NCBI GenBank assembly: GCA_019057735.1
Contig: JAHLWV010000190.1
Span: 1 to 5,132 of the forward strand
Source: Promethearchaeota archaeon
Lineage (GTDB): Archaea; Asgardarchaeota; Lokiarchaeia; Sigynarchaeales; SOKP01
Reading direction: 5' to 3'
DNA length: 5,132 bases
Part shown: positions 1 through 5,037 of the stretch, piece after piece
Layout of the letters: each line of letters opens with the position of its first letter
Numbering within the stretch: position 1 is the first letter of the stretch
The notes under the pieces: model-generated
What the model saw: the letters and a program-made list of their open reading frames with translations, nothing else
The model's database searches: none
What the model was told of the DNA's origin: nothing
Translations under genes and position numbers: made by a program

Positions 1-82
1 ATTTCCTCCCCAGTAAAATTTTATTAATCTTCCTTTATTTGTGTCATTAACAAAAAACTAAAAAACTAATGATGTGAATAAC
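1..82 (+). promoter_or_regulatory. Upstream region and putative promoter of the NMO/FabK-like gene
   Basis: This A+T-rich leader holds a possible archaeal promoter: a purine/A stretch GTAAAA (13-18) resembling a BRE, followed by TTTTATTA (19-26) as a TATA-like box. A transcription start about 25 bases downstream would give a leader of roughly 30 bases. GATGTGA at 71-77 differs at one base from GAGGTGA, the complement of the archaeal 16S 3' end, and sits 5 bases before ATG 83, so it is the likely ribosome binding site. The TATA call is weak because the whole stretch is A+T-rich. The SD call is somewhat better. Confidence 0.35.
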
Positions 83-1135
83 ATGGTTTTAGAAACGAAT
101 ATAACTAAAATGTTTGGGATCAAGCATCCAATCGTCGCAGCACCAATGGGCCCTTTCTACACCACCCAATTAACGATTGCTGTATCTGAAGCGGGAGGTC
201 TAGGCGTGTTGAGCCATTCTGCTTTAATAAGCGATTACATGAGCGGAAAAAATCCCATACAAATTTTAAAAGATAACATGTTAGAGGTTGTTGAACATAC
301 GGATAAACCATTTGGATTTAACATAAGAACCTCTAGAAGAGAAGTTGAATCGCCAATCTTGGTAAAAGAAATTCCTAAATTCATAATGTCAAATCCGAAA
401 CTGAAAGAGCAATGCATTTATGCCATCACTAGCGCAGGATCCTCAAAAACATTACCACAGTCTAAATCTTATCAAAAATTAAAAGAAAGCGGATCGCAAA
501 TAAAACATTTCCACGTTGCTCCTGCTTTATGGCTTGCAGATAAGTGTGTAGCCTCTAATGTCGATGGTGTTGTCGTTACAGGAACAGAAGGAGGTGGACA
601 TCAATCCTACGAAAAAGTTAGCTCGTTAGTCTTACTTCAACAAGTCATAAAAAAACATCCAGATCTCCCTATAATTGCTTGTGGTGGTTTTGCTACTGGC
701 GAAGGTGTTGCTGCTGCATTGGCGTTAGGTGCAGGGGCTGTTGCTATGGGTTCACGATTTATTGCATCGGAAGAAAGCGAGTTTTCCAAGGAATATAAAA
801 CAATTCCATCTAAATCTAAAGCTCAAGATACCATCTTAGCAACTGGAGCGCTTGGACCTATTCGGCTATGGAAGAACGAATATTCGCTCCATCACGGCCT
901 CGTGACGGATAAAGAAGCAAAAATGGCTGAAGAAGCGGGAATGACTCAACAAGACATAATTAAGGAAGGAAAAGCATACGAAGCAGCCTACACAGGCGAT
1001 ATTAATTCTGGTGCTGTTTTACTAGGACAGAGTATTGGTTTAATCGATGATCTGAAGAGTGTCAAAGTTATTATAGAAGAAATTGTTCAAGATGCTGAAA
1101 AGCGATTGAAAATAGCCGCAAGCTATATAAAATAA
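83..1135 (+). CDS. FMN-dependent nitronate monooxygenase / FabK-like enoyl reductase family protein
   Basis: This is a 350-residue flavoprotein of the nitronate monooxygenase (2-nitropropane dioxygenase, COG2070) TIM-barrel family, probably cytosolic. Members oxidise alkyl nitronates with O2, or, as FabK, reduce enoyl thioesters with NAD(P)H. What is visible, numbered from ATG 83: the N-terminal APMG (20-23) and EAGGLG (36-41); FGFN (77-80) at the flavin site; ITSAG (115-119); TEGGGH (168-173), whose His173 aligns with the family's catalytic histidine; ACGGF (199-203) and AMGSRF (221-226), the glycine-rich FMN-phosphate strands; and the C-terminal GQSIGLIDDL (315-324). Length is normal and the gene is intact. 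A GTG at 74 could extend it by three residues, but that GTG lies inside the SD-like GATGTGA, so ATG 83 is preferred. The nearby thiolase and acyl-CoA synthetase favour a lipid-related role, but sequence alone does not separate the two activities. No signal peptide or membrane segment is seen. Confidence 0.88.
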   Translation: MVLETNITKMFGIKHPIVAAPMGPFYTTQLTIAVSEAGGLGVLSHSALISDYMSGKNPIQILKDNMLEVVEHTDKPFGFNIRTSRREVESPILVKEIPKFIMSNPKLKEQCIYAITSAGSSKTLPQSKSYQKLKESGSQIKHFHVAPALWLADKCVASNVDGVVVTGTEGGGHQSYEKVSSLVLLQQVIKKHPDLPIIACGGFATGEGVAAALALGAGAVAMGSRFIASEESEFSKEYKTIPSKSKAQDTILATGALGPIRLWKNEYSLHHGLVTDKEAKMAEEAGMTQQDIIKEGKAYEAAYTGDINSGAVLLGQSIGLIDDLKSVKVIIEEIVQDAEKRLKIAASYIK

Positions 1136-1258: not shown

Positions 1259-2530
1259 TTAGACGTCGAGATTTTCGATAATCGTGGCAACTCCCTGACC
1301 TCCTCCCACGCATGCGTTAGCGATACCATATCTCGCTTTCTTTTCCTTTAATATCCTTGCAACAGTGCCTGTTAACCGTATCATTGTTGAGCCTAAAGGG
1401 TGCCCTATAGCAGTGGAACCACCCATAACATTAACTTTTTCTTCAGAGATGTTAAATTTATCCATACAATTTAACGCAACGATACAAAACGCCTCGTTTA
1501 TTTCCCAATAATCGATATCATCAGCTGTCAATCCCGCATATTTTAGAGCTTTTTGAGTTGCTGGAACTGGACCTCTTCCCATTACAGTAGGATCTACGCC
1601 TGCCCATCCAATTGATACGATTCTTGCCAAGGGTTCAATTCCTCTTTTCTTTGCTTCTTCAGCTTCCATAAGTACAGCTGCTGTAGCTCCTGCGTTTAAA
1701 GGAGACGAATTTCCGGCAGTAATTACACCCTCTTCAGTACCTTCTCTCTTTAAATAACCTTCTTTTCCCCCATTTCTTTCTAAGAAAAAAGGTTTTGATA
1801 TTCGACGCAACTGAGAAACTGTTTCTAGAGTAGATTTTCTAGGATTCATGTCTCTATCGATAATCATTTTCTCTTCCACATTTCCTGGAGCGTGTCCTTC
1901 AATGGGTATGATTTCGCCTTTAAAAAAACCATCTTCGTGACTCTTAACAGCCAGATTATGACTTCTTACACCAAATTTGTCTAGATCTTCTTTGGTAAAT
2001 GTAGGAACTTCTTCTTCGTATACCTTCTGTGCCGTTTGTAGCATATTAAATACCGTTTGTAGATCCAAATCTGGTCTATAAAACTTGCTTTTTTTATTAG
2101 CTGTTGATGTATTGGGTTCTGTTCCTTTACCTCTAACGCGAGTCATGTGCTCAAAACCAGTAGCTAATGCGCTCTTAATCTGTCCCGTCATAATTTCCAT
2201 AATGTTAACATGCATCCCGCTACCAGCTGAACCGCATTGTCTATCTATGGAAAATGCTGGAACTTCATATGGAAACCCCGCCAAAAATAAGGGAATTCGT
2301 CCACCATAAGTCCAATTCTCTAATACACCTGTTGCAGTTCCAACTGATACTTCCCCCATATCTTTCTTTTCTATGCCTTTATCCGCTAATCTTCCATCAA
2401 AAAATTTCATTAACAACTCCGCTAGTAACGCATCTCCTCTGATCTCGCCAAATACATCCCTTTCAGGTTGAGTTGGTCTAGATCGAGAAAAAGCTGTACG
2501 AGCGTAATCAACTAACCACACTTCTTTCAA
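1259..2530 (-). CDS. Thiolase family protein (acetyl-CoA C-acyltransferase / acetyltransferase)
   Basis: This is a 423-residue thiolase that would cleave beta-ketoacyl-CoA with CoA, or run in reverse to condense two acyl-CoA molecules; it is cytosolic. All catalytic elements are present: the nucleophile Cys99 in SIDRQCGSAGSG, the NEAF loop (345-348), His377 in AIGHPLG, and the acid/base Cys407 in NACVGGGQG. The N-terminus (VWLVDYARTAF) and C-terminus (GVATIIENLDV) match full-length family members, so the gene is intact. An extended loop lies around residues 130-170. The motif after GHPLG reads STM where many thiolases have ASG. The start is TTG: an in-frame TAA lies 15 bases upstream, no ATG intervenes, and a strong SD (AAGGTGA) sits 7 bases before it. 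No DUF35/OB-fold partner, which accompanies the archaeal mevalonate-pathway thiolase, is adjacent, so a degradative acyl-CoA role is more likely. It is convergent with the NMO-like gene and divergent from the acyl-CoA synthetase. Chain-length specificity cannot be read from sequence. Confidence 0.93.
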   Translation of the reverse strand: MKEVWLVDYARTAFSRSRPTQPERDVFGEIRGDALLAELLMKFFDGRLADKGIEKKDMGEVSVGTATGVLENWTYGGRIPLFLAGFPYEVPAFSIDRQCGSAGSGMHVNIMEIMTGQIKSALATGFEHMTRVRGKGTEPNTSTANKKSKFYRPDLDLQTVFNMLQTAQKVYEEEVPTFTKEDLDKFGVRSHNLAVKSHEDGFFKGEIIPIEGHAPGNVEEKMIIDRDMNPRKSTLETVSQLRRISKPFFLERNGGKEGYLKREGTEEGVITAGNSSPLNAGATAAVLMEAEEAKKRGIEPLARIVSIGWAGVDPTVMGRGPVPATQKALKYAGLTADDIDYWEINEAFCIVALNCMDKFNISEEKVNVMGGSTAIGHPLGSTMIRLTGTVARILKEKKARYGIANACVGGGQGVATIIENLDV

Positions 2531-2536
2531 ATATAA

Positions 2537-2543
2537 TTCACCT
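2537..2543 (-). promoter_or_regulatory. Shine-Dalgarno site fixing the TTG start of the thiolase
   Basis: On the minus strand the sequence AAGGTGA precedes TTG (2530-2528) with a 7-base spacer. It matches the archaeal anti-SD complement GGAGGTGA over GGTGA. Together with the in-frame TAA just upstream it makes TTG the best start. The only near alternative is GTG at codon 4. Confidence 0.75.
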
Positions 2544-2617
2544 TATACATTAAATTTTAAAATTATTAAAATAAATTGTTTATAAAAAAATTGTTAATAA
2601 TTAATTATTTAGTATTT

Positions 2618-2625
2618 TATATAAA
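2618..2625 (-). promoter_or_regulatory. Putative TATA box of the thiolase gene
   Basis: The minus strand reads TTTATATA, the same octamer as the box upstream of the synthetase gene. It lies 87 bases before the TTG start, predicting a leader of about 60 bases, compatible with use of an SD. A second candidate, TTTATAAA at 2579-2586, would give a shorter leader of about 25 bases and cannot be excluded in this A+T-rich stretch. Confidence 0.35.
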
Positions 2626-2647
2626 TATACAGTTTCTATTAATGTAG

Positions 2648-2663
2648 TGAACATTTTCGTTCA
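2648..2663. repeat. Inverted repeat TGAAC-N6-GTTCA, candidate operator
   Basis: A perfect 5-bp dyad with a 6-base spacer forms a 16-bp element, one of the more G+C-containing spots in this spacer, and is bracketed by GTAG on both sides (2644-2647 and 2664-2667). It sits upstream of both TATA boxes. Its size suits a dimeric winged-helix regulator, but a 5-bp dyad can arise by chance and I saw no second copy near the other promoters. Confidence 0.3.
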
Positions 2664-2772
2664 GTAGCTTGAAAATTATGAATGAAATAAATATTTTAAC
2701 AACATCGACATATAGTATCAAAATTACGTATGCAAATTATTTATTTGAGTAAAAAGAACAGAAATATTTATT

Positions 2773-2801
2773 AGATTTTCAATTTATATAAACTAAAATC
2801 T
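2773..2801. promoter_or_regulatory. TATA box embedded in a 7-bp inverted repeat, promoter and candidate operator of the synthetase gene
   Basis: TTTATATA (2783-2790) is a near-ideal archaeal TATA box 33 bases before the ATG, predicting transcription to start around 2812-2815 and a leader of only about 10 bases. That agrees with the lack of any clear SD. AGATTTT (2773-2779) and AAAATCT (2795-2801) form a perfect inverted repeat whose centre (2787) coincides with the centre of the box. The half-sites are 22 bp apart centre to centre, about two helical turns. A dimer bound here would be expected to block TBP/TFB, as in archaeal repression. The TATA call is good; the operator call is inference. 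Confidence 0.5.
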
Positions 2802-2823
2802 GTAAAAATAAAATTGATGATTT

Positions 2824-5037
2824 ATGACTTTAGTGAGTACAATCCCTAATAAAATTCCAAAAAGGCTTTTACGCGAATTGAAAAAAGAAAAGTATGATAA
2901 TATTATTCTTTTTACTTTAGCAGTTTATGGGCCTCATAAAACGAAAGAGTTAGTAAACGATCCTAAAATTCCTATTGAAAATCGATTGGACAAGGAGCTA
3001 TTTAAGAAATGGGTAACTGAGTTAAATGACAACAGCCTTATTAATGAATATAATCTCGACAATGAAATCTATTATAAAATAACTAATAAAGGCGAAGAAG
3101 AGTTTATGAAGCGTATTGAGGACAATTCTTCTCTAAAGCTGCTCAGGGATAACCTTATAAACACTTTTGATGCGCTTCTTGGAGGATCGGTAATAAACAA
3201 GAAGGTAAATTCTAGATCCACTTCTGGATACACTCTGAGTTATAAGAATTTTATTTTTGGTCTATTTTCAATTAATTGGCGTTTACCCGATATGTTAAGC
3301 GCAGGAACTAAAGCGAGCGATTTAATTCCCGACAAAAAAATGTCTTTCGGTAATATTTTAGATTATAACGCAGAACATTACGGCAATAGGCCTGCTCTTT
3401 TATATGAAGACATTAAGTATACTTACAAAGAGTTAAATGAATGGATGAATCGGTATGCTCATTTTTTTCTTTCTATCGGTTTAAAAAAGGGAGATGTGAT
3501 TAATGTTTTTTTAGAAAATCGACCAGAATTGATGTTTATTCTCGGGGCTATGGCAAAAATCGGGACAATCGCCTCCTTAATTAATACAAGACAGAGAGCC
3601 GCTTCGCTTATTCATAGCCTTACAGTTAATACAGTTAAAGCTTATATAATTGGTGAAGAACTCTATCCCAATTTTCGAAATATTATGACGGATCTAGAAT
3701 TAACGAATGAAGATAAGCTCTTTTTTTTAGCAGATAAAAGTGAGATGGAATTGCCTGAAGGGTTTATTAATTTAAAAGAGAAAATTAATGATCAAGCAAC
3801 AAACACGCCATCCGCTATAAATGAAATTAAAGGAATAGATCCTTATGCCTATATTTTTACATCAGGGACAACAGGACTCCCTAAAGCAGCACCGATGAGG
3901 CATATTCATATGATTGGTTCTATTTATGCATGGGGTGGGATGGCGCTGAATATGCAGCCTGAAGATATTATCTACATCAGTCTTCCATTATTTCATAGTA
4001 ATGCAATGCATATAGGATGGGCCAGTGCCTTGTGTGTTGGTTCAACAGTAGCTTTGGCCCGAAAATTCAGTGTAACTAATTTTTGGAAAGAAGTAAGGAA
4101 ACACAAAGTTACTTGTTTTAATTACATTGGTGAATTATGTCGGTATCTATTGAATCAAGCTCCAAGTATAGAAGATCGAAGACACAATGTTTATAAAATT
4201 TGTGGGAATGGACTTCGCCCTGAGATATGGAAAGAATTTAAGGAGAGATTTGGGATTCGAGAAGTTTACGAACATTATGGAGCAACAGAGATTAGAGGAA
4301 TGTTTTGTAATTATTTTAATATAGACTGTACTATAGGAATTAATTTTGCTACGTACGCTCTTGTTAAGTATGATATTGACATTAATGAACCTTTTCGAGA
4401 TGAAAATGGTTTTTTTCAAAAGGTTGAGGAAGGTGAGGCTGGATTGTTACTTATGAAAATCTTTGATCCAACTACTTTCGCTGGATATACTGATAAAAAA
4501 GCAACTATGAAAAAGATTTTGAAAAATCCATTTGGTAATGGAGAGTCTTGGTTAAATACTGGTGATATGCTCAGAAATATCGGTTATTACCACGCTCAAT
4601 TTGTTGATCGCTTAGGAGATACATTCCGTTGGAAAGGAGAAAATGTATCTACCTCAGAAGTTGAGGATGTCCTTTCTTCATTTAAACAAATCGAACATTC
4701 ATCCGTTTATGGTGTAGAAATTCCAGGTACTAACGGGCGTGCAGGCATGGCTTCGATTATCACTACTGAAAGTTGTGAAAATTTTGACTTTGACGGTCTT
4801 TTGTCAATGTTAAAAACGAATTTACCTGAATATGCGATTCCTAAATTTATCCGGTTTCTTTCTGAATTATCAACGACAAGTACTTTCAAAATAAAGAAAT
4901 CTAAAATGAAACAAGAAGGGTTTGACATCAAGAAGATAGCTGATCGAATCTATATTCTTTTACCTGGCAGTAAAGAATACACCTCTCTTTCAGAAATAAT
5001 TTGTAAAAATATTGGGAAAGGTGAGTATCGATTTTAG
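2824..5037 (+). CDS. Winged-helix domain fused to FATP-type (very-long-chain) acyl-CoA synthetase
   Basis: This 737-residue protein joins a winged-helix domain (about 14-100), a linker of unknown fold (about 101-144) and a complete FATP/very-long-chain acyl-CoA synthetase (about 145-737). The enzyme part would activate a fatty acid with ATP to an acyl-adenylate and then to acyl-CoA. Motifs present: the P-loop YIFTSGTTGLPK (343-354); PLFHSNA (388-394); GNGLRP (461-466); YEHYGATE (482-489); WLNTGD (576-581), with ATP-ribose Asp581; the FATP signature DRLGDTFRWKGENVST (595-610), with Arg596; and TFKIKK (687-692), with Lys689 as the likely adenylation lysine. The C-terminus is complete. FATP proteins usually have about 600-650 residues, so the extra length is the N-terminal domain. 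The start is ATG 2824: an in-frame TGA lies at 2818-2820, no SD is visible, and a TATA box 33 bases upstream suggests a near-leaderless mRNA. No membrane segment is obvious. The enzyme call is firm; exact substrate and the role of the winged helix are inferred. Confidence 0.93.
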   Translation: MTLVSTIPNKIPKRLLRELKKEKYDNIILFTLAVYGPHKTKELVNDPKIPIENRLDKELFKKWVTELNDNSLINEYNLDNEIYYKITNKGEEEFMKRIEDNSSLKLLRDNLINTFDALLGGSVINKKVNSRSTSGYTLSYKNFIFGLFSINWRLPDMLSAGTKASDLIPDKKMSFGNILDYNAEHYGNRPALLYEDIKYTYKELNEWMNRYAHFFLSIGLKKGDVINVFLENRPELMFILGAMAKIGTIASLINTRQRAASLIHSLTVNTVKAYIIGEELYPNFRNIMTDLELTNEDKLFFLADKSEMELPEGFINLKEKINDQATNTPSAINEIKGIDPYAYIFTSGTTGLPKAAPMRHIHMIGSIYAWGGMALNMQPEDIIYISLPLFHSNAMHIGWASALCVGSTVALARKFSVTNFWKEVRKHKVTCFNYIGELCRYLLNQAPSIEDRRHNVYKICGNGLRPEIWKEFKERFGIREVYEHYGATEIRGMFCNYFNIDCTIGINFATYALVKYDIDINEPFRDENGFFQKVEEGEAGLLLMKIFDPTTFAGYTDKKATMKKILKNPFGNGESWLNTGDMLRNIGYYHAQFVDRLGDTFRWKGENVSTSEVEDVLSSFKQIEHSSVYGVEIPGTNGRAGMASIITTESCENFDFDGLLSMLKTNLPEYAIPKFIRFLSELSTTSTFKIKKSKMKQEGFDIKKIADRIYILLPGSKEYTSLSEIICKNIGKGEYRF
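2863..3123 (+). other. Winged-helix (wHTH) domain at the N-terminus of the acyl-CoA synthetase
   Basis: Residues about 14-100 show the order expected of an archaeal winged helix. Helix 1 is around KYDNIILFTLAVYG (23-36); a short helix 2 is around KTKELVND (39-46); a recognition-like helix is DKELFKKWVTELND (56-69), ending in the typical SLI turn; and a beta-wing EIYYKITNKGEEEF (81-94) leads into a final helix. The pattern 'lysine-rich helix, then YYKITNKGEE' is characteristic of PadR/ArsR-like archaeal regulators. Assignment rests on pattern recognition only; winged helices can also mediate protein contacts. Confidence 0.7.

Follow-up and report, generated by a model that had tools for sequence, protein, structure and literature searches.

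The protein encoded at positions 2,824 to 5,037 of a 5,132-nucleotide stretch of Promethearchaeota DNA (contig JAHLWV010000190.1; hereafter the window) joins an N-terminal winged-helix (WH) domain to an acyl-CoA synthetase (Table 1). On balance, we favour the view that a synthetase acquired a DNA-binding-type module in a single event and that this module became a docking or control domain. Such a role for the WH looks more likely than gene regulation; we infer docking from the comparisons below. The fusion places a DNA-binding-type module on a metabolic enzyme, in a group of archaea regarded as the nearest to eukaryotes, and likely relatives of the unfused state are still present, namely a WH-less sister synthetase, a free-standing WH, and proteins in which a related WH is joined to TPR repeats (WH-TPR proteins). 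The system offers a clean way to ask whether domains captured in this manner go on sensing DNA or turn into modules that control the enzyme, and it illustrates that a fold alone is unsafe ground for calling a regulator.

Table 1. Features of the window, with positions counted from its first nucleotide
Feature	Position	Strand	Basis or remark
Nitronate-monooxygenase (NMO)/FabK-like flavoprotein	74..1135	+	91-92% in L001 and L002
Thiolase, divergent neighbour	1259..2530	-	near WH-ACS in L001 (downstream) and L002 (same place)
Upstream block kept with L001	2760..2823	+	89.6% over 67 columns; TATA-like TTTATATA
WH-ACS gene, 737-aa winged-helix/FATP-type acyl-CoA synthetase	2824..5037	+	ORF, family matches, homologues
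N-terminal TIPxKIP motif, residues 6-12	2839..2859	+	alignments
Winged-helix domain, residues 13-100	2860..3123	+	predicted structure; fold search
Recognition helix, residues 57-69	2992..3030	+	face unconserved; acidic residue 56 immediately before helix
Wing hairpin, residues 73-86, acidic tip 79-81	3040..3081	+	predicted structure; row comparison
Helix 102-119 after the winged helix	3127..3180	+	predicted structure
Variable linker, residues 120-138	3181..3237	+	alignment
FATP-type long-chain acyl-CoA synthetase part	3277..5031	+	NF006134 match, residues 152-736
ATP-binding loop FTSGTTGLPKAA	3856..3891	+	residues 345-356; sequence and alignment
K689	4888..4890	+	aligned with lysine of FATP2 TGTFK stretch; invariant in 30 sequences

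The gene product appears to be an AMP-forming long-chain acyl-CoA synthetase of the FATP/PRK08279 type and is presumably active. It scored 712.6 bits against NF006134, above the curated cut-off of 625, and the alignment showed the ATP loop, TGD, the FRWKGENV stretch, and the C-terminal lysine to be intact; we take these elements to have the roles known for them in acyl-CoA synthetases. The first-pass annotation was therefore right in describing a complete synthetase of this type. A domain family scan gave AMP-binding domains alone above family cut-offs, with no biotin-ligase catalytic domain and no match to TPR repeats. Hydropathy gave no membrane-spanning segment within residues 1-165, where the Kyte-Doolittle mean over 19 residues peaks at 0.85 (at 143), and because an N-terminal segment of this kind is missing, we class the protein as a FATP-type enzyme and not as a FATP transporter. 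It is 84% identical to a protein of a Lokiarchaeota genome. The synthetase half of the full-length structure model was too poor (mean pLDDT 58.9) for the interface between the WH and the enzyme to be read. In a second look at the PDB with this model, the 50 rows listed were adenylate-forming enzymes; a family missing from such fold-search lists is no evidence on that family.

The N-terminal domain is predicted to have a true winged-helix fold. A winged helix had been proposed for residues ∼14-100, and the predicted structure does contain one, with the helix order and beta-hairpin wing of a MarR/PadR-like domain within residues 13-100. Solved winged helices match the model in a fold search, which places it near the DNA-binding MarR, PadR, and AspA proteins, with eS10 also among its structural neighbours. 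A WH profile compared with PDB chains gave weak matches to the same kinds of protein (best AspA, E 0.034; PadR and eS10 too), and the best score of the window against Pfam HTH_45 was 18.5 bits, below the gathering cut-off of 25.5. The IPxKIP part of the leader motif is common to most WH-TPR rows and the free-standing WH in alignments. Residues 117-137, covering most of the linker, are 29-43% identical in three of eight pairs compared.

We searched for the fusion in protein and genome data. With residues 1-150 as the query, a protein database search found 34 proteins, comprising 29 full-length fusions (730-739 aa) and five shorter records. One partial record of 471 aa (P0034), which carries molybdopterin-oxidoreductase and AMP-binding domains and is 60% identical to part of residues 1-150, may be joined or chimeric. 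A scan of species genomes, using patterns that find close relatives only, gave eight loci, all fused and all titled Lokiarchaeota or Lokiarchaeia. Scoring the four best candidates in each of 227 genomes of the same phylum gave 61 synthetase places at E 1e-80 in 26 genomes. Twelve of these, in nine genomes, are fused without an internal stop; 33 others (46-56% identity) align only from about residue 122, or from 303 in a broken copy, and the remaining 16 are 35-40% identical. The in-frame fusion reported in the first-pass annotation thus holds as one open 737-aa frame, and the domain order is conserved in related archaea. An assembly or annotation artefact is ruled out by the recurrence of the fused frame in 12 genes from 9 of the 227 genomes and its full length in 29 of the 34 database proteins. 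Nor are the synthetase and the WH always separate genes, as the fused genes show; genome G120, where they are separate, is the one exception. Searching with the WH alone recovered the same 12 fused genes, the free-standing 113-aa protein of G120, and five strong matches that front larger proteins (E 6.4e-24 to 2.4e-19 with the synthetase WH profile). Each of these five proteins has TPR repeats; they come from L070, L072, L073, L074, and L094 (a fuller version of locus L071), and the repeats are weakest in L073. Weaker matches reach E 0.01 and include G140, also a TPR protein. Relatives of the WH-TPR type carry the names Promethearchaeota or Lokiarchaeota and in one case Thorarchaeota.

Phylogenies place the fusions in a single clade and suggest that the WH joined one synthetase lineage once. 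The synthetase-only tree (54 rows, 570 columns) contained the window, 11 of the 34 database proteins, and, from the loci used, every open synthetase of at least 550 aa and at least 250 bits that was not contained in another, and so takes in part of the 61 genome matches. All 24 fused rows fell on one side of a branch (99/97), and their nearest neighbour was the WH-less synthetase of G120 (100/98). The WH tree (60 rows and 96 columns, which are few) kept the 39 synthetase WHs together to one side of a single branch (100/98); the free WH of G120 did not fall among them but grouped with the TPR type and had a long branch. The WH would have changed from a DNA-binding type to an altered one. In G120 (L092:1226-8469), a 605-aa WH-less synthetase and the free WH lie ∼5 kb apart on the same contig, separated by reverse-transcriptase-like and transposase-like genes as read from the ORFs. 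The free WH is 36% identical to that of the window, and a database search with it found only itself; the arrangement could be either the state before fusion or a later split. At another locus, a paralogous synthetase directly upstream of the WH-ACS gene (L080:1580-3835) has an SCP2-like N-terminal domain, with PDB matches to AF_1534 (E 0.0044) and a putative sterol carrier protein 2 (E 0.04) and no Pfam or NCBIfam match. N-terminal domains thus seem to be swapped within this synthetase subfamily. A further locus (L090, G003:C99:1-9900) holds four WH-less synthetase paralogues in tandem, with matches at 1650, 3582, 5676, and 7658 of the contig.

The first-pass annotation had proposed, by analogy with BirA, that the protein could bind DNA according to fatty-acid or acyl-adenylate occupancy and tune lipid genes. 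In the form considered here, the WH would bind an operator, and this binding would be switched when the synthetase is occupied by substrate, acyl-adenylate, or CoA, so that the enzyme regulates lipid genes. The winged-helix fold close to that of DNA-binding MarR, PadR, and AspA proteins and the 293-bp intergenic region that WH-ACS shares with the divergent thiolase gene are in line with this proposal. We examined the surface that would read DNA by comparing seven recognition-helix face positions (56, 57, 58, 59, 61, 62, and 65) between 39 rows of synthetases and only 20 of WH-TPR proteins; many of the latter are close kin, and row pairs are not independent. In the WH-TPR proteins, the face reads N56 K57 N58 T59 H61 K62 K65 (NKNT.HK..K), and its identity was 98, 95, 97, 100, and 96% in successive divergence bins at rest-of-domain identities like those of the synthetases. 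The synthetase helix, including that of the window, lacks this signature. Face identity among the synthetases was 34, 37, 43, 55, and 76% at rest-of-domain identities of 0.51, 0.59, 0.69, 0.78, and 0.89, always below the rest, and both the wing and the remainder of the domain changed more slowly than the face, also among close relatives: the window keeps 2 of 7 face positions with L002 (rest identity 0.77) and 4 of 7 with P0003 (rest identity 0.90). The wing has no special conservation in the WH-TPR proteins either (35-76% identity). Across the WH-TPR proteins (L070, L072, L073, L074, L094; P0035-P0052), the basic recognition helix RMNKNTFHKWAK is near-invariant although identity elsewhere in the domain falls to ∼50%; from their sequences, these proteins look like DNA-binding regulators and may have one kind of site in common.

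The charge of the domain differs as well. With rows identical over the first 100 residues dropped, the mean net charge of residues 54-69 was +0.49 in the synthetases (range -2 to 4) versus +5.80 in the WH-TPR proteins (4 to 6), that of the wing (residues 74-86) -1.64 versus +1.35, and that of residues 24-100 -5.3 versus +8.2. All 39 synthetase rows have an acidic residue at position 56; 36 have I, L, or V at position 59, and 33 have D at position 79. In G120, the free WH carries D56, K57, D58, and I59 and is nearer the synthetase type. Residues fixed in at least 85% of the synthetases and rare in the WH-TPR proteins are T6, K23, D25, H38, D46, D56, Y76, and E99.

The upstream DNA was compared as well. 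The block next to the start codon that is kept with L001 contains a TATA-like element and is likely a core promoter. When the intergenic region was compared with eight loci by blastn, the window and L001 had a second stretch in common (53 columns, 77%), and the likeness between the window and L002 is one AT-rich stretch (114 columns, 75%), which can be promoter sequence; the other matches were short. An inverted-repeat search of window positions 2500-2860, L001, and L002 gave AT-rich palindromes. No palindrome or other operator-like element kept across loci was seen by inverted repeats, a four-way upstream alignment, or blastn against the eight loci, in the few orthologues with upstream DNA. 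The helix face, charge, and upstream comparisons together disfavour a conserved sequence-specific operator. Because the recognition helix is less charged and less conserved than that of WH-TPR proteins at equal divergence, the wing is acidic, and no operator was seen, the DNA-linked regulation of lipid genes suggested earlier is disfavoured, and we regard it as unlikely.

The genes around WH-ACS would suit an enzyme that activates fatty acids, or acids related to them, for anaerobic degradation by a beta-oxidation-like pathway. L001 and L002 also have the thiolase and the NMO/FabK-like gene close to the fused gene (89-92% identity), and NMO relatives (52-57%) lie near WH-ACS in L080 and L085. 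The other 8 of 12 loci (L003-L008, L084, and L086, several of them short) gave no thiolase or NMO match. Further neighbours, judged by eye from ORF sequences, are enoyl-CoA hydratases and acyl-CoA dehydrogenases, and others are a molybdopterin oxidoreductase, glycyl-radical enzymes, and a carboxylesterase. One of the glycyl-radical enzymes (L084:168-2543) matches trans-4-hydroxy-L-proline dehydratase with 1290.7 bits (cut-off 1100). In L080 (6247-7374) and L085 (6123-7256), a ferredoxin-type protein lies between the synthetase and the NMO gene; the front portion of this protein gave weak matches of HTH-like kind (to Sulfolobus_pRN, E 0.016, in L080; to TrmB, E 0.0091, in L085).

In our preferred account, the synthetase would feed a beta-oxidation-like pathway in Lokiarchaeia, and one synthetase lineage would have captured, once, a WH akin to that of the WH-TPR family in the same phylum. 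The captured domain would then have dropped the DNA-reading face of that family, with T6, H38, D46, D56, Y76, and E99 nearly fixed instead. Its contacts may be with the synthetase half, with the other subunit if the enzyme is a dimer, or with a partner from the pathway, and may tune the activity or location of the enzyme. DNA specificity that differs between paralogues could also make the helix vary, yet close relatives vary too. Several of the synthetase-specific residues may reflect common descent alone. An aspartate at the start of a helix is a common cap, and by itself proves nothing about D56.

Another face of the domain could still bind DNA, and the N-terminal helix could touch DNA, RNA, or membrane. 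Eukaryotic FATPs have an N-terminal membrane-spanning anchor, and a replacement for it could be a WH and basic N-terminal helix that place the enzyme non-specifically on the nucleoid, RNA, or a membrane surface. Residues 9-23 have a net charge of +4.2 in the synthetases versus +0.5 in the WH-TPR proteins, a basic excess due in part to the lack of residues 18-20 in the WH-TPR rows. The missing membrane-spanning segment and the structural likeness to eS10 point the same way, as does the weak resemblance of 12 of 18 members to the profile of the Sso10a chromatin family. However, the net acidic residues 24-100 are poorly suited to an anchor on nucleic acid or anionic membrane, and the window scored 22.2 bits against Sso10a, far below the curated cut-off of 60, so that we consider such anchoring quite improbable. 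We give similarly little weight to a fatty-acid sensor in which the WH would bind nucleic acid by a remodelled surface (the basic N-terminal helix, H38, and Y76) according to acyl-adenylate or acyl-CoA occupancy.

Least probable is a functionless WH that drifts as a neutral passenger: in seven of eight pairs the WH has a dN exceeding that of the synthetase half by a factor of 1.4 to 2.7, but the WH is kept in an open frame in all 12 fused genes, its dN/dS is below 1 (0.10-0.65 in the seven of eight pairs where computable), and eight residues (T6, P8, K10, P12, H38, E42, F60, and G90) are invariant in all 39 synthetase rows. The WH is thus under purifying selection. In the pair L007/L008, the WH and linker are identical (dN and dS 0) while the synthetase halves differ by 6% (94% identity), showing that divergence is uneven along the gene.

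Literature searches covering titles and abstract openings found no report of a winged-helix/acyl-CoA-synthetase fusion and no description of an acyl-CoA synthetase acting as a fatty-acid-sensing trigger enzyme. Neither the type of enzyme nor the fold is new; their combination did not appear in these searches. The biotin protein ligase family is described as having forms with and without an N-terminal DNA-binding domain (group II and group I, respectively; PMC4016012), and the window protein resembles group II BirA in carrying a DNA-binding-type domain ahead of an adenylate-forming enzyme. The architectural parallel drawn in the first-pass annotation is therefore real, but the window protein has no biotin-ligase domain, its recognition-helix face is unconserved, and the chemistry of a reading helix is missing. 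The NF006134/PRK08279 synthetases and FATP2 (PDB 9vzp and 20zn) are alike over the whole synthetase half, including the AMP-binding motifs and FRWKGENV, whereas the window protein has the additional N-terminal WH and, by hydropathy, no membrane-spanning N-terminus. WH-less paralogues in the same phylum (e.g. L042, L059, and L044) are 51-55% identical to its synthetase part. The WH-TPR proteins of Promethearchaeota share the homologous WH and, in most rows, the IPxKIP leader; theirs is joined to TPR repeats and has a near-invariant basic recognition helix, whereas that of the window is joined to a synthetase.
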